IMG/VR virus record: IMGVR_UViG_3300048694_000505 | Coordinates: 1-22,305 of that record | Strand: one strand, 5' to 3' | From: a virus | DNA: 22,305 bases | In this document: piece after piece, positions 715 to 18,642 of the stretch | How the letters are laid out: each line of letters opens with the position of its first letter | Position numbering within the stretch: position 1 is the first letter of the stretch | Notes under the pieces: generated by a model | Database searches by the model: none | What the model was told of the DNA's origin: nothing | Seen by the model: only the letters and a program-made list of their open reading frames with translations | Made by a program: the position numbers and the translations under genes

Positions 715-1626
715 TCAGGACGAACCTGACGAGCCCCACATTCCGAGGGGATCGGACCAGCCGAAGCTATAACGCTCACGGGCCTTGTAACGGACGTTGC
801 CGGTATCGAAATCGCCGTCCATGCTGTTTTGCAGGGGGGTGCGAACGAAATGCTTCATACCGTTGGGAACGTCAGTGGTCAGGAACCAAGCGTTGGGGTC
901 GGTCAAGAAGTGGTTGACGGTGTAGCCTTCCGGTACAGCGCCCATGTTCTTGATGGCGTTGATGTCGTTGTCGTTGGTTCCAACGCGCAGCTCGGTTTCG
1001 AGCAAACGGTCGGCGACGAACATCAGAGCCGGGGGAACAATCATCTTCTTGGGACGAGCCGCAATCAGCAGACTGCGTTCATCCGTCCAAGCGGCGATCT
1101 GAATAACGGCGGCTTCCAAGGAAGTCTCGTTCAGGTCCACTTGAACAGCGGGGGTGTTGCTGTTGGTTCCACCAGACACCAGGGGGTGACTAGCAGAGAA
1201 CAGGGCTTGACCGTCGCCACCAGCGTAGGTAGCAGAGAAGCCGTTGTTCAACACCGCAGCAGCTTTTACCTGCTTGGTATATGCCATGGCACGGGCCAGA
1301 GCCTTGGTGTAACGAGCAGACAGGCTGTCGTACAGGTTATCTTCAATCGCCTCTTCGGTGATCGAGAAACCCAAAGCGATGGTTTCGTGCGTATAGCGGG
1401 TGGTCCAGGCTTCCTGCGCATTGTCATATGCAATCGCAGCGCCTTCGTTCTTCACCGGAGCGGCGGAGAAGCCAGACAGCTTGGTTTCTTCTTCGAAGGA
1501 ACGCTCGGAAGTCTCAGTTTCGTAGATTTCCTTGTGTTCTTCACCGTAGCGTGCGTACTCTAGACCGAACAGGGCGTTCAGACCAGGGAGCAGCTCTTTC
1601 AGCAGTTGTGCGCGTGAAATGGCCAT
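715..1626 (-). CDS. Major capsid protein, Mu gpT-like family
   Basis: A 303-residue protein that I recognise as a phage major head subunit of the Mu gpT-like (HK97-fold) group. Characteristic stretches are the N-terminal ARYGEEHKEIYETETSERSF, a central segment TRYTHETIALGFSITEEAIE, DSLSARYTKALARAMAYTKQ, and the ASHPLVSGGT motif near residue 145. It forms the icosahedral shell. The start follows a strong AAGGAGT site, and the gene lies 13 bases after the 1640-2299 gene. It sits downstream of scaffold and GroES-like genes, as expected for a head-assembly operon, and is followed by a terminator. Family assignment is by recall of these motifs, not a search. Confidence 0.9.
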   Translation of the reverse strand: MAISRAQLLKELLPGLNALFGLEYARYGEEHKEIYETETSERSFEEETKLSGFSAAPVKNEGAAIAYDNAQEAWTTRYTHETIALGFSITEEAIEDNLYDSLSARYTKALARAMAYTKQVKAAAVLNNGFSATYAGGDGQALFSASHPLVSGGTNSNTPAVQVDLNETSLEAAVIQIAAWTDERSLLIAARPKKMIVPPALMFVADRLLETELRVGTNDNDINAIKNMGAVPEGYTVNHFLTDPNAWFLTTDVPNGMKHFVRTPLQNSMDGDFDTGNVRYKARERYSFGWSDPLGMWGSSGSS

Positions 1627-2799: not shown

Positions 2800-3798
2800 T
2801 TAATTCCTATCCAATTTAGCAACCTGTTTTGCGTACTGTTCCGGAGTGATCCCGAGTTTGCGGGCTAACGCAACTTGAGACTGCTTCAGTTTTATACGAC
2901 TAGGCGACGAACTACGGGAGGCCGGGGCCACAACCGTAGACGGCTTTGATGCACGGCGTGGAGGTTCATCCTCATCTGCCGGAGTTGACCTCTTTTGTTG
3001 AGGCTGGTCATCATCCTCTGCGCTCTGAGTTTCAAAGTACTCAGGAAACCTTTTGCGCATGGTTTTATCAACCACGCTGAAGTACTCTTCAGTACCTATA
3101 TAGTCTGCACCATACTCTCGTTGCAATTTCTTGTCAACACCCATTGCAGCCATTGTCATTTCATCATCCACACCGAACCAATCACTGTTGGTTTCAAGCC
3201 AACGTTTGGTCCTGGGGCTGATCTTGGGCTGAGTGTCTTCAACCTTCATCGGCCTATATTCGCCTTTGTCCTCCACCTCAATAGGTCTGAGGGTTTCGGC
3301 CCGATCAAGTTTGACGGTTGCCTTGGCAATTTGCGTTTGGGCTTCAACTACAGCATCCGCATCACCGGCTTCATAAGCCTTACGATATTTCTCTTTGGCG
3401 GCGTCCAATTCGGCTTGAGCGGCGGTTTTGCTAGTAGCAATGTACTCTTTACTACCGTTTGAAAGTTGTTGCTGTAAACGTTTGTTTTCTTCAAACACTT
3501 TACGGGCAAAATCTTCAGCGGCCTCACGTTCACGCACTGCCTGTTCTTTGGCACGGCGTTCGTCGTGATAACCGCGTGTGAACTTTTTAATACGTTGTTG
3601 AACCTTCTCGTCATATGACGCGAGTTCATCTTCAGTGGGATCGTCAGGCGGAGGAGCGGCTTTTCGATCACGATCCGCAGGTGGCGTATCGTCTTCGATC
3701 TCTATTTCAACCTTCTCTTGCGCCTCATCTTCCCTAAATTTGGTGTTGGTTTCCTCTTCATCAGGAAATTTATATTCAGGTTCTTTGAACGTTGCCAT
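2800..3798 (-). CDS. Probable head scaffolding protein
   Basis: A 332-residue, highly charged protein. Residues 1-70 are acidic and proline-rich; about 75-185 is a long Ala/Glu/Lys/Arg helix predicted to form coiled coil; the middle holds a small conserved block around RTKRWLETNSDWFGVDD; the C-terminal 35 residues are basic and helical (SRIKLKQSQVALARKLGITP). This design, an acidic helical rod ending in a basic helix-turn-helix that binds the capsid shell, is typical of scaffolds such as that of P22. Position between portal and capsid genes agrees. A good AAGGAG site precedes the ATG. No protease gene is visible, so scaffold removal would not need one in this window. Confidence 0.8.
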   Translation of the reverse strand: MATFKEPEYKFPDEEETNTKFREDEAQEKVEIEIEDDTPPADRDRKAAPPPDDPTEDELASYDEKVQQRIKKFTRGYHDERRAKEQAVREREAAEDFARKVFEENKRLQQQLSNGSKEYIATSKTAAQAELDAAKEKYRKAYEAGDADAVVEAQTQIAKATVKLDRAETLRPIEVEDKGEYRPMKVEDTQPKISPRTKRWLETNSDWFGVDDEMTMAAMGVDKKLQREYGADYIGTEEYFSVVDKTMRKRFPEYFETQSAEDDDQPQQKRSTPADEDEPPRRASKPSTVVAPASRSSSPSRIKLKQSQVALARKLGITPEQYAKQVAKLDRN

Positions 3799-3808
3799 CT
3801 TCTACTCC

Positions 3809-4225
3809 TTAAGCAGCGCGGGTGATACCACGCGGGTCTTCCACAACAGCCTCGACCGAATCATCGTTGATGATGCGGAATTCCCGGCCATGAATCTTCA
3901 GGCGGGTGCCTGAATTGGGGCGCACGATGACAAAGTCACCGACTTTGCATGACGGTCCATTGGGGAAGCGAGTCTTATCTGCGTATGCGTCGGGGCCTAT
4001 TTTGACCACGAACAACACAGGGGTAAGAAGCTCCTCTTTCCAAACCTCATTGGCGGATTTCACCAGACCAACATCACTGTCAGCGTACTCTTCCATCGCC
4101 TCGGGGACGACGCAGAGCAGGTGAAATGTCTTGGGATCAGGCAGTTGTTTTGCCTTTTGCTCGGCTTCCTTATTCAGGATTTTTGACAGGTCAACTGCCA
4201 ATGCCGGATTAAACACTTCGCTCAT
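3809..4225 (-). CDS. Phage GroES-like co-chaperonin
   Basis: A 138-residue protein. Residues about 73-130 match the GroES fold closely: VVKIGPDAYADK, then GDFVIVRPNSGTRLKIHGRE, then FRIINDDSVEAVVEDP, which parallels the GroES stretch ending in EEYLILREDDILAVIE. Residues about 45-66, between the first strands, correspond in place to the mobile loop that binds GroEL. There is an extra N-terminal helical segment of about 30 residues. Co-chaperonins such as T4 gp31 work with host GroEL to fold the phage capsid protein. Location between portal and scaffold fits that role. The gene overlaps its upstream neighbour by four bases (ATGA) and has a GGAG site. I did not see a GroEL gene. Confidence 0.8.
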   Translation of the reverse strand: MSEVFNPALAVDLSKILNKEAEQKAKQLPDPKTFHLLCVVPEAMEEYADSDVGLVKSANEVWKEELLTPVLFVVKIGPDAYADKTRFPNGPSCKVGDFVIVRPNSGTRLKIHGREFRIINDDSVEAVVEDPRGITRAA

Positions 4226-4416
4226 TCGCGCTCCAATCTTTGCACGAGGTCGTTGATGATTGAGTCTGCAAGGTTTAGACCTCGGATTACCCCACAGACT
4301 TTTTTGTATTCATCAAATGTGTCAGCGCGAGACGCGGCAAGGAACGCGGTTTGCTCTTGCACCATCTTCTCAATCTCTTTTTGCACGAGCGCTAACGCCC
4401 GGATTGAATCACTCAT
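4222..4416 (-). CDS. Small conserved helical protein of the head operon
   Basis: A 64-residue, fully helical-looking protein (SDSIRALALVQKEIEKMVQE, then SFDEYKK-like FDEYKKVCGVIRGLNLADSI). It overlaps both neighbours by four bases and has an AAGGGG site inside the end of the portal gene, so it is translationally coupled. Similar small proteins occur right after portal genes in other phages, but I know no function. A role in head assembly or as a minor component is inferred from place only. Confidence 0.75.
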   Translation of the reverse strand: MSDSIRALALVQKEIEKMVQEQTAFLAASRADTFDEYKKVCGVIRGLNLADSIINDLVQRLERE

Positions 4417-6938
4417 TCATTCCCCTTCTTTGGTTTAGATTGTTGTGCCGTTCGTTGTGCGTGTTGCACAGCCATTTGAGCTCGATGTTTGGCGGCATCA
4501 AGCCCCAGTTTTACACCCTCGGCTTGCATCTGTTGATTGAGTTTGTCTTTAGCCGCAGCGGATGTAGCGGCAACTTGCATAGCTGCAATCTCTTTCTGGG
4601 CTGCAATGCGGGCCTGCTCAATCTTCAAACGGTCGGCTTTTTCTGCCGCCTCAATCTGTTGTTTCTGGGCCTTGAGTTGAATCTCTTGCTGTTTGAGCTG
4701 GAGTTCTTGCATCTGCATTTGAACCACCGGGTCCTGCATCTGTTGTTGAGCCTGCTGTTGTGCGGCAGCCTGTTTGTCCTGCATAAGGATTTGTTGTGTA
4801 GCCTGTGCGCCCATAATGGCAATCTGGTCTGCCATTTCTTTGGGAATCTCAGGCACATCCGTGCCTTCTTTATTGTATTTATCGTAGTCAGGCAACGACA
4901 TCCCAGTCATCTGTTCAACCTGTAGGCGGTACTTGAACGCCATGTGTTGATTGATGTGAGCGACCATGGCAGACATCATCATTTGAGACTGCGGGTTAGG
5001 CTGACCCATCACAGGCTGCATGAGCATCTGCTGAATCATCGGGTCTTGCAGGAACGCTTGGTGTGCGGCCATGTGAGCGTCGTGGTTTTGTTCAACAAAT
5101 GCTTTTAGCGGTTTGCCGTTAAGCAAATTTTGGTTCTCCGTCACAGGGTCTACCGGAGTCATGTCATCTTCAATCGGCACAAGTTTGGCTGCGTTCTTGA
5201 TACCCAACACCTCGATCATCTGACGATGTAACAGAGGTAAGTCATACAGCTGAGGCGCAGTTTGAGCCAGTTGAAGAGCGGCCTGATAAGTCACAATCTT
5301 CTGTGCCATCGTGGCAGCGTTGGGATCAGACACGGGGATCACGTCCACCATGTCATAGTCGGCCTTCTTCGCTTTACGTGAGCCATCAACTGGCTCATAG
5401 TCGTATTCTTCGGGCGTGTAGTCAGCAATGATGACTTTGAGGAGCTTGAACTCCTGCTTCATGCTAAAGTGCATGCGTGCCTGAACGGCACCCATAACCT
5501 TCAACGTACGCTCCAAAATAGCCAGTGTGGTACCCACGGGCGCTTGAGCCGACATGTCGCTGACCTTCATGTCACCAGAAGATGCAAACGCACGGCCCTC
5601 AGTAACGATCTGGTTGAACAGCGTGTAGAGCGTTTGACTTGGCTCTTTGTACGGCAGTGGGAGTATGTTGTCGCGGATTGAACCGCTGGGGACATCTACG
5701 TCCCTGAATTCTCCTGGGGCAATCGGCGTGTCATCACCCTTAATGCGAAGTCCGCGCGATTTAAGCCCTCCGGGGAGATTGGAGAGGGTGCCCGCATCGA
5801 CAAGCTGACGGATAAGCATTGTGGCTGACTTGGCGTACCCACCGATGAGGTGGATGAGTCCGTAGCCATAGAACCCGAATCCGGGGATGTACTGGTAATG
5901 CACGAAGTGTTGACGCTTGAGGTGGAGTTTATCGCCTTCATACCAATTCCTTCTGATGGCCAAAATTTTACTGGTGCCTTTCTCCACCGTCACCACGTAC
6001 GGCAGAGCGATACCGGTCTGTTCGCCCTTCTTATTCTTGTGTTCATATCCAGCCAAGTCAAGGTTGACGTGCATCTCCAGTATGCGGTAACGGTCATCAC
6101 TGATAGCAGAGAGGCCCATCTCATTGGCTTTTTGTTTCTCGATATCGTCTAAATCATGGGTTGGTTCACCCAAATTAACGTCTCGATAGAACCCAGCCTC
6201 AATTAGTTTTGTGACTTCATTTTCGGTTTTACGCATGACGTGAGTAACACGTTCAGCACGTTCAATAGACGACGCACCGTATGGCACAACGATGTCTTCA
6301 GCCGGAATAAACATAGCCACTTGACGGCCAAGACTGGGGTCAAAATACACCTTCTTAAACGCTGAACCCGCAATTGGCAGGTTCCACAACAACTTCTCAT
6401 GCTCCGGACGATACTCCACCATGACGTCTGTCAACTGGTAGTTCATGTCATCACGAACACGAGCGGCTGCCTCTTCTTTATCAGGTGTGTCCCTACCAAT
6501 GATGGCGGTCTTCACAGGGCCAGCAGCTGGAAATGTCTCAGTGATACCTTCAGACTGAAACCGCACAACGGACTCAGTCAACATCGGATGGAACACACCA
6601 CATGCACCGTTCCACGGCTCAGTGCGTTCCTCATACTTAAGACCCAACAGTTTCAGACCTTCAACGTAGGTCATCATCCATTCTTTACGGTCCATGATGT
6701 CTTTGTTGAAGTCCTCAACCAGCTCATGCCCCAAAGAGTCAAGGGCTGACTCATCCATTTCATCGGCAAGGTTGGCGTCAAAGTCACCGCCATAATCTTT
6801 CTTTGGCTCTAGATCAATTTCTAAATCACCAATGCCGATATGTACCGACTCAGGGTCTTCAATCTCAATCTCGATTGGTTCGGCCTCTACAGCCCCCATG
6901 CCAGCAGGTGCCCCATACAACGCTTTATCGATTGCCAT
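4413..6938 (-). CDS. Portal protein
   Basis: An 841-residue protein, the size of podovirus-type (P22-like) portals. After an acidic N-terminus, residues about 80-160 contain WMMTYVEGLKLLGLKYEERT and WNGACGVFHPMLTESVVRFQ, and the middle holds RNWYEGDKLHLKRQHFVHYQ, a pattern I associate with this portal group. The last about 150 residues are Gln/Ala/Met-rich and predicted to be long helix, resembling the C-terminal barrel of P22-type portals. The dodecameric portal forms the DNA entry vertex and binds the terminase. It lies downstream of the terminase genes, with only the 6948-7628 gene between. The ATG has an AAGGAAA site. Confidence 0.88.
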   Translation of the reverse strand: MAIDKALYGAPAGMGAVEAEPIEIEIEDPESVHIGIGDLEIDLEPKKDYGGDFDANLADEMDESALDSLGHELVEDFNKDIMDRKEWMMTYVEGLKLLGLKYEERTEPWNGACGVFHPMLTESVVRFQSEGITETFPAAGPVKTAIIGRDTPDKEEAAARVRDDMNYQLTDVMVEYRPEHEKLLWNLPIAGSAFKKVYFDPSLGRQVAMFIPAEDIVVPYGASSIERAERVTHVMRKTENEVTKLIEAGFYRDVNLGEPTHDLDDIEKQKANEMGLSAISDDRYRILEMHVNLDLAGYEHKNKKGEQTGIALPYVVTVEKGTSKILAIRRNWYEGDKLHLKRQHFVHYQYIPGFGFYGYGLIHLIGGYAKSATMLIRQLVDAGTLSNLPGGLKSRGLRIKGDDTPIAPGEFRDVDVPSGSIRDNILPLPYKEPSQTLYTLFNQIVTEGRAFASSGDMKVSDMSAQAPVGTTLAILERTLKVMGAVQARMHFSMKQEFKLLKVIIADYTPEEYDYEPVDGSRKAKKADYDMVDVIPVSDPNAATMAQKIVTYQAALQLAQTAPQLYDLPLLHRQMIEVLGIKNAAKLVPIEDDMTPVDPVTENQNLLNGKPLKAFVEQNHDAHMAAHQAFLQDPMIQQMLMQPVMGQPNPQSQMMMSAMVAHINQHMAFKYRLQVEQMTGMSLPDYDKYNKEGTDVPEIPKEMADQIAIMGAQATQQILMQDKQAAAQQQAQQQMQDPVVQMQMQELQLKQQEIQLKAQKQQIEAAEKADRLKIEQARIAAQKEIAAMQVAATSAAAKDKLNQQMQAEGVKLGLDAAKHRAQMAVQHAQRTAQQSKPKKGNE

Positions 6939-6947
6939 GATGTTTCC

Positions 6948-7628
6948 TTAAATCATCTTTGTGATACGCGCACCTTCTGGTTTGAACAGATTTGGCAACG
7001 CAACGGTTTCTTCATCGTATAAATGCGGCAACACTAGCCGCATACGCATTTTGTGCAGTGTGGTTTTGCTCAAGACCTGACGGTACGAACCCCACTCAAT
7101 GTCGTATTGTGCATCTTTAGGCAGATTTGCCAAATCAAATAACTTGTCCTCAACCTGCTCCCGTGTGGCGTAAGTAACACCCCACCTGATGTCGTCGTGG
7201 GAGGCAAACTGTGGTGCCACACGCCACACCAATTGACCTGTCGGCAGTTTTGAAAACTCATCATAAAAATGTTTAGCCAATCGAGCCTCGGCTTCTTTGG
7301 CGTCCCCGCCCTCGATTGCGCAAGCGTAAGTCTCGTAACGGTACCGTGTTGCATCAGCAGTCGGTTCAGCAAACTCTTCAACAGTTATGTTTGTGTGAAC
7401 GGGATGTTTTTTCTCAACCATCGGTACGGCTGTGGCCACACCAGCCACCATGTCCACAATCGGAGCCGCAGGTCCGGTTTGGCAGACAAACATTCTCTCC
7501 AACTCCGCCGTCAAAGTTGCCGCGTTCCAAACAACTGGGCTCGGTGCTGGAGTCAGAAGTTCTGCGCTGGCTAACGAAGGGGCAGCCAGTGCTGCTAGGG
7601 CGGCTTGAATAAATGTGCGTCGTTGCAT
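6948..7628 (-). CDS. Protein with Tat-like signal peptide, function unknown
   Basis: A 226-residue protein starting MQRRTFIQAALAALAAPSLA: a twin arginine, a short hydrophobic stretch and an A-S-A cleavage site near residue 22. This matches a Tat signal (RRxF-hydrophobic), although Sec export is also possible. The mature part is mixed alpha/beta, with WRVAPQFASHDDIRWGVTYA and a basic segment near the end (TTLHKMRMRLVLP). No family was recognised. It lies between terminase and portal genes, ten bases from each, with an AAGGT site. An exported protein is unusual in a packaging operon. Alternatively the N-terminus is a membrane or assembly anchor mistaken for a signal. Confidence 0.75.
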   Translation of the reverse strand: MQRRTFIQAALAALAAPSLASAELLTPAPSPVVWNAATLTAELERMFVCQTGPAAPIVDMVAGVATAVPMVEKKHPVHTNITVEEFAEPTADATRYRYETYACAIEGGDAKEAEARLAKHFYDEFSKLPTGQLVWRVAPQFASHDDIRWGVTYATREQVEDKLFDLANLPKDAQYDIEWGSYRQVLSKTTLHKMRMRLVLPHLYDEETVALPNLFKPEGARITKMI

Positions 7629-7639
7629 CTGCTTACCTT

Positions 7640-9217
7640 TTACACTGTGTAGTACCGGTCACGCCGATACCCTTTGAACCACTTAATATCCTCGGGCTCA
7701 TCCGATGGGAGCCTGAGATACCCACCCTGCCTGAACCGCAAGAGCGCAAGCGTCGTTGAGTCCACCAAGTCATCGTGTTCACCCGATGGAAACGCCGCAA
7801 TTTCGTCAACCAACTCTTCTGCCCAGCGTGTAGCCGGTGCCCACACTTTACCCGATGCAAATAAATCTGCAACTGCATTGAGACGTGTGATCTTATCTGC
7901 CCCCCTGCTGGGAGTGAACTCCTGCACGGGTATGCCCATGGCCCGAAACTCCTGAATGAGGGGCGCACCAGACGCCTTTTTCTCAACCAGGAACGCATCA
8001 GGCTCCCATTCTTTCCAATCCTCAAACGCCTTCTTCTTCAACTCCGGAAACTCAAGGCGTTCTTTGTACGCGTTCAACAGGATGATATTGGCGTTGCCCC
8101 TATCTTCATCAAGATAAAACACACCCCACGTTGTACATGCGCTGTAGTCAGCACTTGTCTTGGCTTCGAACGCCGTATCCCACGCCTGAATGATGAACTC
8201 ACACGGAGGCGGGTTCTCGTGCTCCCATATCTGCCACCAGTCGCGCTTAACTATCGCGTTTGTGTCCGAGGTAGGCTGCTGCTGGTACTGCGCCATCCAT
8301 TTGCCAGTGGGCAACTCCTCCCGAAGCGACAACAACTCCTGCTGGCTCCAGAATTCTGGCCACAACGGCTTGTCATCATCAAAGAGTGCAGGGAACTCAA
8401 TCACCGTCCACTCTTCACCGCCTCTTTGCGCCGCCGCTTTCAACACTTGTGCAGTCAAATCACGCAGTGACCAGCGTGTCATCACAATAACGATGGCTCC
8501 ACCCGGCTGTAGACGCTGACGAGGACCCGATGTGTACCATTCATACACTTTGTCGTACACCTCTGGGTTGTACGCACCGATGGCGGCCTCTTGTTCCGAG
8601 TGCGGATCGTCAATAATGAGCACATCCGCGCCTTTTCCTGTCACTGCGCCGCCCACACCGATAGCAAAATAGTCGCCACCAAAGTTTGTGTTCCATCTTC
8701 CCGCTGCCGCAGAGTCCGTTTGCAGCCCAACTTGCGGAAAAATGCGTTTATAGACCTGCGAATCGACCAAATTACGCACTTTACGACCAAAACCCACCGC
8801 CAGCTCGGCCGTATGGGACGTCTGAATCACCTTTTTATGCGGAAATCTGCCCAAAAACCAAGCCGGGAGCAGGTATGACGCGAATTCTGACTTCGTATGA
8901 CGGGGTGGCATGTTAATAATGAGGCGTTTTATGTCCCCGTTGGCCACATCCTCGAACGCTTTAGCCATTCTCTTGTGATGTCGCCCCCCAATGAATGTGG
9001 GCCACACCTCTTTGACGAACGCCATGAAGTCAATCTGAGCCACATCACGCATGGTACGAGTGCGCAACTCCTCCAAAATCTCACTTACTGACTCTTGCTC
9101 GTCCTTTGGGAACCTCTTGACCAACGCCAACAACTGTTCTGGCGTCAACATGCGAATCTTTTCGCGTGTCTCAGGGTTATCGAAGAACCTTTTGAGTGAA
9201 TCAGATATCGGTTTCAT
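7640..9217 (-). CDS. terL: Terminase large subunit
   Basis: A 525-residue packaging motor protein. The ATPase domain shows a Walker A-like MPPRHTKS at 103-110, Walker B VLIIDDPH at 199-206 and a coupling-type VMTRWS at 245-250. The C-terminal RNase H-like nuclease shows acidic residues at D347 (QAWDTAF), E412 (LVEKKASG) and D482/D483 (HDDLVDS). Length and domain order are normal and complete. It translocates DNA into the prohead through the portal and cuts the concatemer. The start overlaps the small-subunit gene by 17 bases with a GAGG site inside it. Confidence 0.95.
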   Translation of the reverse strand: MKPISDSLKRFFDNPETREKIRMLTPEQLLALVKRFPKDEQESVSEILEELRTRTMRDVAQIDFMAFVKEVWPTFIGGRHHKRMAKAFEDVANGDIKRLIINMPPRHTKSEFASYLLPAWFLGRFPHKKVIQTSHTAELAVGFGRKVRNLVDSQVYKRIFPQVGLQTDSAAAGRWNTNFGGDYFAIGVGGAVTGKGADVLIIDDPHSEQEAAIGAYNPEVYDKVYEWYTSGPRQRLQPGGAIVIVMTRWSLRDLTAQVLKAAAQRGGEEWTVIEFPALFDDDKPLWPEFWSQQELLSLREELPTGKWMAQYQQQPTSDTNAIVKRDWWQIWEHENPPPCEFIIQAWDTAFEAKTSADYSACTTWGVFYLDEDRGNANIILLNAYKERLEFPELKKKAFEDWKEWEPDAFLVEKKASGAPLIQEFRAMGIPVQEFTPSRGADKITRLNAVADLFASGKVWAPATRWAEELVDEIAAFPSGEHDDLVDSTTLALLRFRQGGYLRLPSDEPEDIKWFKGYRRDRYYTV

Positions 9218-15326: not shown

Positions 15327-15343
15327 TTTCATACCGTATGAAA
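15327..15343. repeat. Palindrome TTTCATACNGTATGAAA, copy 9
   Basis: Perfect copy with central C. Its right half runs into the AAAGG ribosome-binding site of the 15353 gene, so a bound protein or an RNA hairpin would cover it. It also supplies an in-frame upstream ATG at 15338. Confidence 0.95.
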
Positions 15344-15352
15344 GGAAATGAA

Positions 15353-16234
15353 ATGACAATCGAAGTAAGCAAACTCTCGGGTTCGGCACTCATCGTCAAC
15401 CTGAATCTGTCCGTATGGACTGCACGAAAGATGGACAAGGGCGTGTCTCAAGAGATTGACCAAGCCAAGGCAACCAAGACCCGTGCAGGGAACTACCACA
15501 AGAACCTATTGGCGGGTTCGGGTAAGTTGGATGAAATCACCAAACTGGCAAACGCCATCCGCACATGGCACTACACCCACACGCAACCGTGGGGGGACAA
15601 TGGGGACAGGGTGTTACCCATGACCATGTTCGTGGACTATCGTGGGCAACTGACCAACTACGAGAATCAGTTTGCAACACTGGTAAACAGTTTCCTGAGT
15701 GAATACGACACGCTGGTGACGGCGGCGGCGTTCCAACTGGGTAACTTGTTTAATCGTGAGGACTATCCCGCCCGTGAGCAAATCGTGAGTAAGTTTGGGT
15801 TTAGGTATGCGTTCACGCCACTACCTACTGCGGGTGACTTCCGTGTGGACATTGGTGAGCAGGGGCTGTCCGAGTTGCGTGACCACTACGAGGGCGTGTT
15901 GACTGAGCGCACCACGACCATGATGCAGGATGCGTGGGACAGACTGTATGACGCACTGTCGAAAATGTCCGAGCGTTTGTCTGACGATGTTGACCCAAGC
16001 ACGGGTGAAACCAAACGCAAGATATTCCGTGACAGTCTGGTGGATAACGCCATAGATGTTTGTAAGTTACTCAAACATTTCAACACGACCAATGACACTA
16101 AGTTGGAAGCCATGCGTCAACAACTTGAGGATGCCATGCGTGGTGTAGATGCACAGTCATTGCGTGAGTCTGACTTACTGCGTGAGCAGACCAAATCCAA
16201 AGTCGATGCGTTGCTCGACAAATTTTCCCTGTGA
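15353..16234 (+). CDS. Helical partner protein of the MoxR/VWA set (DUF3150-like)
   Basis: A 293-residue protein from the ATG at 15353; AAAGGAAA sits six bases before it, while an alternative ATG at 15338 lies inside the palindrome. It is mostly alpha-helical, with SALIVNLNLSVWTARKMDKG at the N-terminus, WHYTHTQPWGDNGDRVLPMT near 75-95 and a helical C-terminal third rich in Glu, Arg and Leu. I associate this pattern and this gene order with DUF3150-type proteins next to MoxR ATPases and VWA proteins in phages and integrative elements; that link is from memory. It may be the substrate, scaffold or adaptor of the ATPase. Followed by a palindrome and the ATPase gene. Confidence 0.72.
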   Translation: MTIEVSKLSGSALIVNLNLSVWTARKMDKGVSQEIDQAKATKTRAGNYHKNLLAGSGKLDEITKLANAIRTWHYTHTQPWGDNGDRVLPMTMFVDYRGQLTNYENQFATLVNSFLSEYDTLVTAAAFQLGNLFNREDYPAREQIVSKFGFRYAFTPLPTAGDFRVDIGEQGLSELRDHYEGVLTERTTTMMQDAWDRLYDALSKMSERLSDDVDPSTGETKRKIFRDSLVDNAIDVCKLLKHFNTTNDTKLEAMRQQLEDAMRGVDAQSLRESDLLREQTKSKVDALLDKFSL

Positions 16235-16248
16235 GAACAGGTATCTGC

Positions 16249-16279
16249 GGGGCGGTTTCATACAGTATGAAACTTCCCC
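16249..16279 (+). repeat. Extended hairpin around palindrome copy 10
   Basis: The core TTTCATACAGTATGAAA is at 16256-16272. Flanks extend it: GGGG-CG before and TT-CCCC after, giving a 15-position stem with an internal mismatch pair. It is followed by ATTTTGTGTTT, so it could act as a weak terminator or mRNA end-protector between the 15353 and 16329 genes. Confidence 0.8.
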
Positions 16280-16328
16280 ATTTTGTGTTTGTGTGTTAGT
16301 TTGTTCAACCCTTTGAAAGGAAATGAAA

Positions 16329-17408
16329 ATGTCACTTTACAAATCAATCTCTCTGCAACAGACCGCTGACCTCATCGCCGCAGTCGGTGATGTTCAAACC
16401 ATACTAGCGCAAGGCGAAATGGGCATTGGCAAATCATCCATCCTAAAGATGTTGCGTGAAAAGCCTGAATTCAAAGACCACTACTTCTGCTATGTCGACA
16501 TTACAACCAAAGATGTTGGCGACTTCATGGTTCCGAAAATCAAAGACATTGATGGCAACGAGGTGTGTCGCTTTGTTCCGAATGAGGAATTCGGTTTGCA
16601 CTTCAAAGACCGCAAGGTGGTGATGATGCTCGATGAGTTGGGCAAGGCAAAGGGTGGCGTGATGAATGCCTGTCTGCGCCTGATGCAAGAGCGTTCGTTG
16701 GGTGTGTATGACTTGCAGGGTATTGTGTTTGCCACAACAAATTTGGCTGTGGAGGGTATTGGTGACAATGTTCCGCCCCACGCCAGAAATCGTGTGACTC
16801 AGGTGCGTGTCGCTAAACCTACGGCAGAGGAATGGATGACCTATGCAATCAGCAAGGGTGTCAATCACACAGTCATTGCTACTGTGCGTGAGTATCCCGA
16901 CATGATGGCATCGTTTGAGGACTACGAATCGCCAACACAAAACACCTATGTGTATGACCCCCGTGATGTTCGCCTGTCGTTTGTCACGCCCCGTTCGTTG
17001 GAGAAAGCAGGTCACATCGTTGACCGTTGCTCTATCTTGGGTAAAGATGTTTTGGCTCATGCGTTGAAAGGCACAGTCGGTGACAAGGCAATGCTCAACA
17101 TCCTGACGATGGTGGACATGGATGCACAACTCGCTGATTGGGATGACATTATCAAATCGCCAACAACTGTGCCTGTGCCAAACAATGGTGCGGCATCGTG
17201 TATGTTGGTTGCCAAAGCGGTTCAGCGTATCCGTAAGGACAACATCGGTTCATGGATGGACTTCTTACCCCGTATGTCCAAAGAAGCGCAGGGCTTGTTT
17301 GCCCGTAGCGTTATGCAAGAGCGTTGCCCCAACCGTGAAGTGGCGGCGACCAATATGAAGTTTGCGAAGTGGGCGGCAGACAACAACTATATGTTTGCCC
17401 GTCGTTGA
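16329..17408 (+). CDS. MoxR/CobS-type AAA+ ATPase
   Basis: A 359-residue ATPase. Walker A GEMGIGKS at 29-36, Walker B VVMMLDE at 97-103, sensor-1 FATTN at 134-138 and an arginine-finger segment PPHARNR at 149-155. The order and size match MoxR-type AAA+ proteins such as CobS, which form hexameric rings that remodel protein partners together with a VWA protein. The ATG at 16329 is eight bases after AAAGG; one at 16323 is too close. The VWA-metallopeptidase gene follows. T4-like cyanophages also carry CobS-like ATPases with unclear roles. Target unknown. Confidence 0.88.
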   Translation: MSLYKSISLQQTADLIAAVGDVQTILAQGEMGIGKSSILKMLREKPEFKDHYFCYVDITTKDVGDFMVPKIKDIDGNEVCRFVPNEEFGLHFKDRKVVMMLDELGKAKGGVMNACLRLMQERSLGVYDLQGIVFATTNLAVEGIGDNVPPHARNRVTQVRVAKPTAEEWMTYAISKGVNHTVIATVREYPDMMASFEDYESPTQNTYVYDPRDVRLSFVTPRSLEKAGHIVDRCSILGKDVLAHALKGTVGDKAMLNILTMVDMDAQLADWDDIIKSPTTVPVPNNGAASCMLVAKAVQRIRKDNIGSWMDFLPRMSKEAQGLFARSVMQERCPNREVAATNMKFAKWAADNNYMFARR

Positions 17409-17422
17409 TTTTTTGGCGGGGG

Positions 17423-17439
17423 TTTCATACAGTATGAAC
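17423..17439. repeat. Palindrome copy 11, imperfect (last base changed)
   Basis: TTTCATACAGTATGAAC, differing from the consensus only at the final base. It is flanked by GGGGG and CCCCC, making a hairpin 17418-17443 with one unpaired T. No T tract follows. It lies between the ATPase and VWA genes, 33 bases before the VWA start. Confidence 0.92.
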
Positions 17440-17472
17440 CCCCATTCGTTAACCAGAGAAAGAGAGGAAATC

Positions 17473-18642
17473 ATGTTTGTTACACAACTTAATCAGATGA
17501 CTGCATTGCAGAAAATTGAGCGTGCTCATGTGGAACTCATGGCGCACCAAGATACTATGGAGTATGCGGGTGTCATCATGGTCGGCAAATATTTTGTCGA
17601 TGAGAATGTCCCTACTGCTTGCACCAATGGCATCGACTGTAAGTATGGCAAGGCGTTCATTGAGGGACTGTCTGATAGCGACTTGCGTGGTCTTATCTTG
17701 CATGAGAATCTGCACAAGGCGTTCCAACATACTTTCCTGTGGCGTCACTTGTATGAGCAGAACCCCAAGGTTGCAAACATGGCTTGCGACTATGTAATCA
17801 ATCTCATCATCAAAGATATTGATAGGGCATCGGATGGGTTCGTGACTCTGCCCAAACAGGGTTTGATTGACGAGCGTTTTCGTGGCATGGACTCACAGGA
17901 AGTGTTTGACATTCTCATGGATGAGGGTGGGGATGGTGGCGATGAGGGTGAACCGCTTGACGAACACGACTGGGAGAGTGGCGAACAACTGACTGACCAA
18001 GAGAAGGAACAACTTCAGAAAGAGATTGACCAAGCCCTGCGTCAAGGTCAGATGTTGGCTGGCAAGATGGGTGGGCGCATAACCCGTGAGTTGGGTGAGT
18101 TGCTTGAACCCAAGGTGCGTTGGCAAGATAAGTTACGGGAGTATCTGTCTAGCCTTGCAGATGGTAAGGATGTTTCTACATGGCAGAAAGTCAATCGTCG
18201 TTGGCTACAACACGATATGTATATGCCCTCTACTGTGTCCGAGAGCATGGGGCGTATCGTGATTGGCGTGGACACATCGGGTTCGATTGGTGGGCGTGAG
18301 CTGAATGCGTTTCTCTCTGAGGTCAAGGCAATCTGTGAGAATGTGTCTCCCGAGTTGGTGGACTTACTGTATTGGGACACCTCAGTAGCGGCACACGAAG
18401 TGTATGCCCGAGACAGTCTGGACAAACTGGTGAGTAGCACCAAACCCGCAGGTGGCGGGGGGACAGACGCATCATGCGTTCCCATTTACATCAAAGAGCG
18501 TGGCATCAAACCCGAGTGCGTTGTCATGCTGACTGATGGATATGTAAGTGATTGGGGCACATGGCAACAGCCTGTGCTGTGGTGCATCGTCAATGGTTCG
18601 AGTAGCAATGCGCCTGTCGGTCAAACCATTCATGTGGATTGA
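17473..18642 (+). CDS. VWA domain protein with N-terminal HExxH metallopeptidase-like domain
   Basis: A 389-residue protein. The N-terminal part holds HENLH at 77-81 followed by H86, a zincin zinc-binding motif, and ANMACDYVIN at 101-110, as in DUF2201-type predicted metallopeptidases. An acidic linker spans about 147-175. The C-terminal VWA domain has a complete MIDAS: DTSGS at 267-271, T331 in GGGGTD and D355 in MLTDG. VWA proteins act as adaptors of MoxR ATPases, so this and the 16329 gene product likely form one machine, possibly with proteolytic output. Start ATG follows GAGAGGAAA; a longer frame from 17362 only reads through the palindrome. Confidence 0.88.
   Translation: MFVTQLNQMTALQKIERAHVELMAHQDTMEYAGVIMVGKYFVDENVPTACTNGIDCKYGKAFIEGLSDSDLRGLILHENLHKAFQHTFLWRHLYEQNPKVANMACDYVINLIIKDIDRASDGFVTLPKQGLIDERFRGMDSQEVFDILMDEGGDGGDEGEPLDEHDWESGEQLTDQEKEQLQKEIDQALRQGQMLAGKMGGRITRELGELLEPKVRWQDKLREYLSSLADGKDVSTWQKVNRRWLQHDMYMPSTVSESMGRIVIGVDTSGSIGGRELNAFLSEVKAICENVSPELVDLLYWDTSVAAHEVYARDSLDKLVSSTKPAGGGGTDASCVPIYIKERGIKPECVVMLTDGYVSDWGTWQQPVLWCIVNGSSSNAPVGQTIHVD

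Follow-up and report, generated by a model that had tools for sequence, protein, structure and literature searches.

Genomic context of the Tat-signal gene

The window analysed here is the whole of a 22,305-base virus record, and it carries, once, a gene for a protein with a predicted twin-arginine (Tat) signal (6948..7628, minus strand), called the Tat gene below. The open reading frame, defined together with the family alignment, starts with ATG and encodes 226 amino acids. Both flanking genes lie on the same strand, with the terminase large subunit upstream (7640..9217; Pfam Terminase_6C; PHROG 38, E 1.4e-104) and the portal protein downstream (4413..6938; PHROG 1216, E 3.8e-23), which bears out the initial annotation of a twin-arginine protein between these two genes. 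By direct reading of the DNA, a possible ribosome-binding site, AAAAGGT (7635..7641, minus strand), overlaps the terminase stop codon. The same minus-strand operon also holds a GroES-like co-chaperonin gene (3809..4225), which relatives keep inside the head operon and whose counterpart in four of them is directly followed by the Tat gene, and a scaffold-like gene (2800..3798; phrog_28737, function unknown), named "scaffold" from its position before the capsid gene. The major capsid protein is encoded at 715..1626 on that strand. Scans of the window for Rfam families and tRNAs gave no matches.

The product begins with MQRRTFIQAALAALAAPSLASAELL, and the RRTF motif, the hydrophobic stretch and the ASA site that had been read from the sequence at the outset are all present within residues 3-22. 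RRTF occupies residues 3-6, with the two arginines R3 and R4 (CGA CGC, 7617..7622, minus strand) unchanged in 36/36 distinct relatives; it is followed by a charge-free hydrophobic stretch with a mean hydropathy of 1.60 and then by A20-S21-A22, an A20-x-A22 arrangement. The predicted signal peptide therefore comprises residues 1-22 (7563..7628, minus strand; Pfam TAT_signal E 0.026, below the cut-off), with a cut after A22 placed by the -3/-1 rule (MQRRTFIQAALAALAAPSLASA|E), and leaves a mature domain of residues 23-226 (6951..7562, minus strand) that an AlphaFold2 model built from 24 sequences predicts as a helix plus long beta strands.

Conservation of the twin-arginine signal

Relatives were gathered stepwise. 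The first search contained an N-terminal pattern, and most later ones relied solely on patterns of the mature part, so that those searches were unbiased toward the twin arginine. The final mature-pattern search yielded 60 contigs, 61 with the window; four of these start within the gene, and from the remaining 57 come 36 distinct proteins with an N-terminus, a few of them cut at the C-terminal end by the end of the contig. R3 and R4 are each present in 36/36 of these proteins, F6 in 35/36 (the remaining one has L), and position 7 is L, I or V in all 36. Within the first 30 columns of an alignment that reaches members of about 30% identity, M1, R3, R4 and F6 are the only invariant positions, and the invariant N-terminal columns of a second alignment of 24 sequences (A5) are M1, R3 and R4. 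Across these 24 sequences the arginine pair is written by 8 different codon pairs, which places the constraint on the protein. Remote members carry textbook signals, for example MDRREFLQLTAAALGMVLIPESFA and MERRNFLKAISVGAASLAMPSIVLSA; a loose -3/-1 site occurs in 24/24 members and a strict AxA-type site in 11/24.

Homologues without the twin arginine, which the initial annotation had named beforehand as evidence against its reading, were sought and none was found. A copy of the domain devoid of the signal was also sought, with a mature-only profile against 19,660 ORF products of the collected loci; it returned 64 rows, 57 of them strong (E below 1e-15) and the other 7 at E 0.79 or worse. Judged by this conservation, the twin-arginine signal is real.

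Two kinds of control bear on whether such a start could be a chance likeness in a cytoplasmic protein. Of 1451 distinct ORF products of the loci collected by then, 20 passed a filter that demanded a twin arginine and, after it, an uncharged hydrophobic stretch; 19 of the 20 belong to this family. The filter skips some family members and measures specificity only. Pfam TAT_signal (PF10518) matched 13/24 family members at E<=1, all weakly (best E 0.0056), but none of 36 further late proteins drawn from the window and one relative, and NCBIfam TIGR01409 matched 9/24 members, again weakly. The point in favour of chance is that the window protein, at 14.9 bits, falls below the curated TAT_signal cut-off of 22.7; because the profile is merely 21 residues long, this score lowers the certainty without excluding a Tat substrate. 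Set against a pair conserved throughout the family, written with several codon choices, and a single non-family match among the 1451 products, a fortuitous resemblance is extremely improbable. On these sequence grounds we consider that the protein is very probably exported via Tat.

Fold and relatives of the mature domain

Confidence in the AlphaFold2 model rose from pLDDT 63 with 10 sequences to 82 with 24 sequences, and in the latter model the block means run from 83 to 94 between residues 31 and 200. Foldseek against the PDB and viral models gave no match at E below 0.001. In structural comparison, capsid and encapsulin chains gave a middling best Z of 6.5 over 110 residues with an rmsd of 9.7, and other matches reached Z 5.6-6.0 with an rmsd of about 3 over 100 residues. 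Two fold assignments were considered. A tail-terminator or neck fold came from the poor pLDDT 63 model and a strand-helix-strand order, and it was dropped because those chains lost their top rank with the pLDDT 82 model. An HK97-type capsid fold, for which the profile comparison with the phage's own capsid family gave a 17-column likeness at a probability of 4.7%, is treated as unproven.

The mature part belongs to no convincing family in Pfam, PHROGs, NCBIfam or PADLOC, the matches in the last three being weak and inconsistent; phrog_22510, of no known function, was matched by 5/24 members (best E 0.0072). A profile search of PDB sequences gave nothing at E below 0.04. Three different queries against named phages returned no relatives, one of them giving just two records, both from the same virus, at E of about 9, and no relative of the mature part was found on plasmids. 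Bacterial and archaeal genomes, one per species, were scanned twice, which gave 38 and 269 pattern stretches, none of them confirmed.

Residues C49, W135, R136, E160 and D161 are invariant in the mature part (24/24, alignment A5). Tat commonly carries folded enzymes, and both points would suit an enzyme or binding protein that alters the nutrient or envelope chemistry of the host periplasm and has nothing to do with other phages. No enzyme family was matched, however, and no conserved histidines or cofactor motif were seen by eye in alignment A5; this explanation is somewhat unlikely.

Accessory distribution and genomic locations

Loci were also fetched by the capsid protein alone, and of at least 600 the 80 highest-ranking were taken. 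Many of the 80 are short fragments; when all were searched with a profile, 3 of them carried the Tat gene. Terminase and portal were both measurable in 38, and with a gap below 60 counted as no insert, the slot between them was empty in 25, held another insert in 10 and held the Tat gene in 3. The named relatives likewise have other, unrelated genes in this slot. The terminase/portal junction is thus an insertion slot for accessory genes in this phage group. Among its other occupants are proteins of 149 and 248 aa and a family of 87-88 aa proteins; the four inserts compared with Pfam (149, 88, 93 and 248 aa) had no match at its cut-off. Small genes of this kind lie in the slot at 4385-4834 of L031, 4323-4772 of L037 and 4139-4654 of L054; at 2195-2458 of L058, 1810-2073 of L072, 4541-4807 of L084 and 170-433 of L099; and at 3894-4640 of L063.

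Among the 61 contigs with the Tat gene, 38 have it between terminase and portal (some with one flank only on the contig), 10 just upstream of the terminase and 4 between GroES and scaffold, so that 52 have it within or adjoining the packaging/head block; in the remaining 9 it stands in a recombination-gene block beside a PD-(D/E)XK exonuclease, most of these also with an ERF-type protein. One of these nine is contig G001, in which nothing separates terminase from portal and the Tat gene lies elsewhere on the opposite strand, followed by a gene for a RecA-dependent nuclease. A gene of the RecA-dependent nuclease family follows the Tat gene outside the head block in L109 (9921-10232, plus strand; E 5e-16).

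These distributions bear directly on a second proposal of the initial annotation, that the N-terminus works in assembly. The protein would then be a virion or assembly component whose conserved N-terminus functions uncleaved, for instance as a membrane-seeking or ejected part, and the position of most copies in or beside the head block, together with the weak structural likeness to phage capsid-fold chains (and, in the pLDDT 63 model, to chains of necks and tail terminators), would agree with this. A head or neck structural protein is expected in all phages with the same head genes, but the slot held the gene in 3 of the 38 measured loci. Most relatives with those head genes do without it, and in nine contigs it lies away from them. 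Moreover, the fold matches are not significant, and no reason is known for an assembly peptide to imitate a consensus Tat motif, arginine pair included, in every member. Working in assembly is therefore disfavoured, and we regard a virion role as quite improbable. The Tat gene is an accessory ("moron"-type) gene and not a head component.

Gene order also bears on a late periplasmic lysis regulator or effector, which might delay lysis or act on the wall as T4 antiholin RI does. Most copies of the Tat gene are co-directional with the packaging genes, and, according to the excerpted text of PMC8385771, there are periplasmic regulators of lysis whose signals are cleavable. Yet the Tat gene has no recognised holin, endolysin or spanin gene beside it, nine contigs have it in the recombination block, and no likeness to wall-acting families was found in Pfam, NCBIfam or PHROGs; such a function is unlikely.

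Mosaic inheritance

Pairwise identities point to exchange of the gene between phage backgrounds. The window and L013 share 73% identity in the Tat protein and 53% in the terminase, and L115 and L108 share 85% in the Tat protein and 52% in the portal; conversely, L103 and L109 have terminases of 78% identity and Tat proteins of 29%. Mantel tests on 12-14 loci gave r of 0.55, 0.59 and 0.71 between Tat protein distances and those of terminase, portal and capsid (0/2000 permutations each), and r of 0.40 for GroES (5/2000 permutations). As far as such sequence comparisons indicate, the gene shows mosaic exchange, but the exchange is partial, since its distances track those of terminase, portal and capsid.

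A proposed role in the periplasm

Conserved signal, sporadic presence, shifting location and a packaging or recombination setting together fit a folded, Tat-exported protein that acts on the envelope. The best overall explanation, which we hold to be reasonably likely, is a Tat-exported periplasmic accessory protein, and a role directed at the host or at rivals in the envelope, rather than one in the virion, is probable. The initial annotation had suggested an envelope or periplasmic role expressed late. Its first part is well supported by the arginine pair kept in all 36 distinct proteins, while late expression suits the sites in the packaging block and does not suit the nine contigs with the gene in the recombination block.

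As we picture it, an accessory gene of "moron" type would have inserted into the packaging block, and its product would be made and folded in the cytoplasm. The host Tat translocase would recognise M-x-R-R-x-F-[LIV]; a host Tat system is assumed here. The protein would then be exported, shed about 22 residues and act as a soluble periplasmic protein, where it might exclude superinfecting related phages by interfering with the receptor or with DNA ejection. Sporadic envelope proteins of phages commonly serve superinfection exclusion, and on that account we favour it as the specific action; interference at the receptor or DNA-ejection steps is a tentative suggestion. No similar protein was found among known exclusion and defence proteins in Pfam, NCBIfam, PHROGs and PADLOC, such proteins being very diverse. 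On an equally speculative footing, the host Tat system might place in the periplasm a folded protein of a phage-only family, possibly with a new fold and encoded in a late or recombination block, which would serve to attack competing phages or to shield against them; the terminase/portal junction would be one insertion slot of the family.

Phage proteins destined for export usually carry signals of the Sec, SAR or lipoprotein kind. In the titles and abstract openings of the papers retrieved on phages and Tat or twin arginine, we found no description of a phage-encoded Tat substrate family. A family that keeps its twin arginines even at about 30% identity would clearly exemplify phages that depend on the Tat system of the host, and Tat would join the routes by which phages remodel the envelope; if the role in conflict is true, phages send proteins for conflict with other phages through Tat. 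The junction between terminase and portal has also been shown to take up accessory genes in these phages.

Phage group and comparison with known systems

The head genes of the window are closest to those of DSL-LC04, 023Pt_psg01 and the pelagiphages HTVC027P and HTVC023P. The related contig G002 encodes adaptor-type and very large proteins, and no long-tail genes were recognised in its ORF list; two proteins in the control set of 36 matched SU10_adaptor. Elsewhere in the window (15338-18642, plus strand) lie three adjoining genes, for a DUF3150-like protein (E 0.00025), an AAA-type ATPase (weak matches) and a DUF2201 metallopeptidase/VWA-like protein, a set that we take to resemble the MoxR-VWA type. 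A related phage contig, L140, encodes a Rap1a immunity-family protein with a Sec-like start that is predicted to be exported (6649-6966, minus strand; E 3.7e-16).

In the excerpts of PMC9599517, HTVC023P-type phages are described with the Podoviridae and the GroES-like co-chaperonin is one of their core genes. These pelagiphages and DSL-LC04 (PMC9599517, PMC10611076) share with the window related terminase, portal, GroES-like and capsid genes; they differ from it in the other, unrelated genes of their terminase/portal slot, where no relative of the Tat gene was found.

With Tat substrates as defined by PF10518 and TIGR01409, the window protein has in common the M-x-R-R-x-F-[LIV] motif, a charge-free, alanine-rich stretch and small residues at -3 and -1, whereas its score lies below the curated cut-off, its mature part falls in no family found and it is encoded by a phage. 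The signal of T4 antiholin RI is of a different kind from Tat. RI resembles the window protein as a phage protein sent to the periplasm and, according to the same excerpts of PMC8385771, has a cleavable signal, but its gene neighbourhood is another. Phage moron genes and envelope superinfection-exclusion proteins offer the remaining comparison: like them, the Tat gene is an extra gene, sporadic among close relatives, with a predicted envelope product, and, with no sequence similarity found to them, it differs in lying between packaging genes and in a signal for Tat instead of Sec or lipoprotein export.
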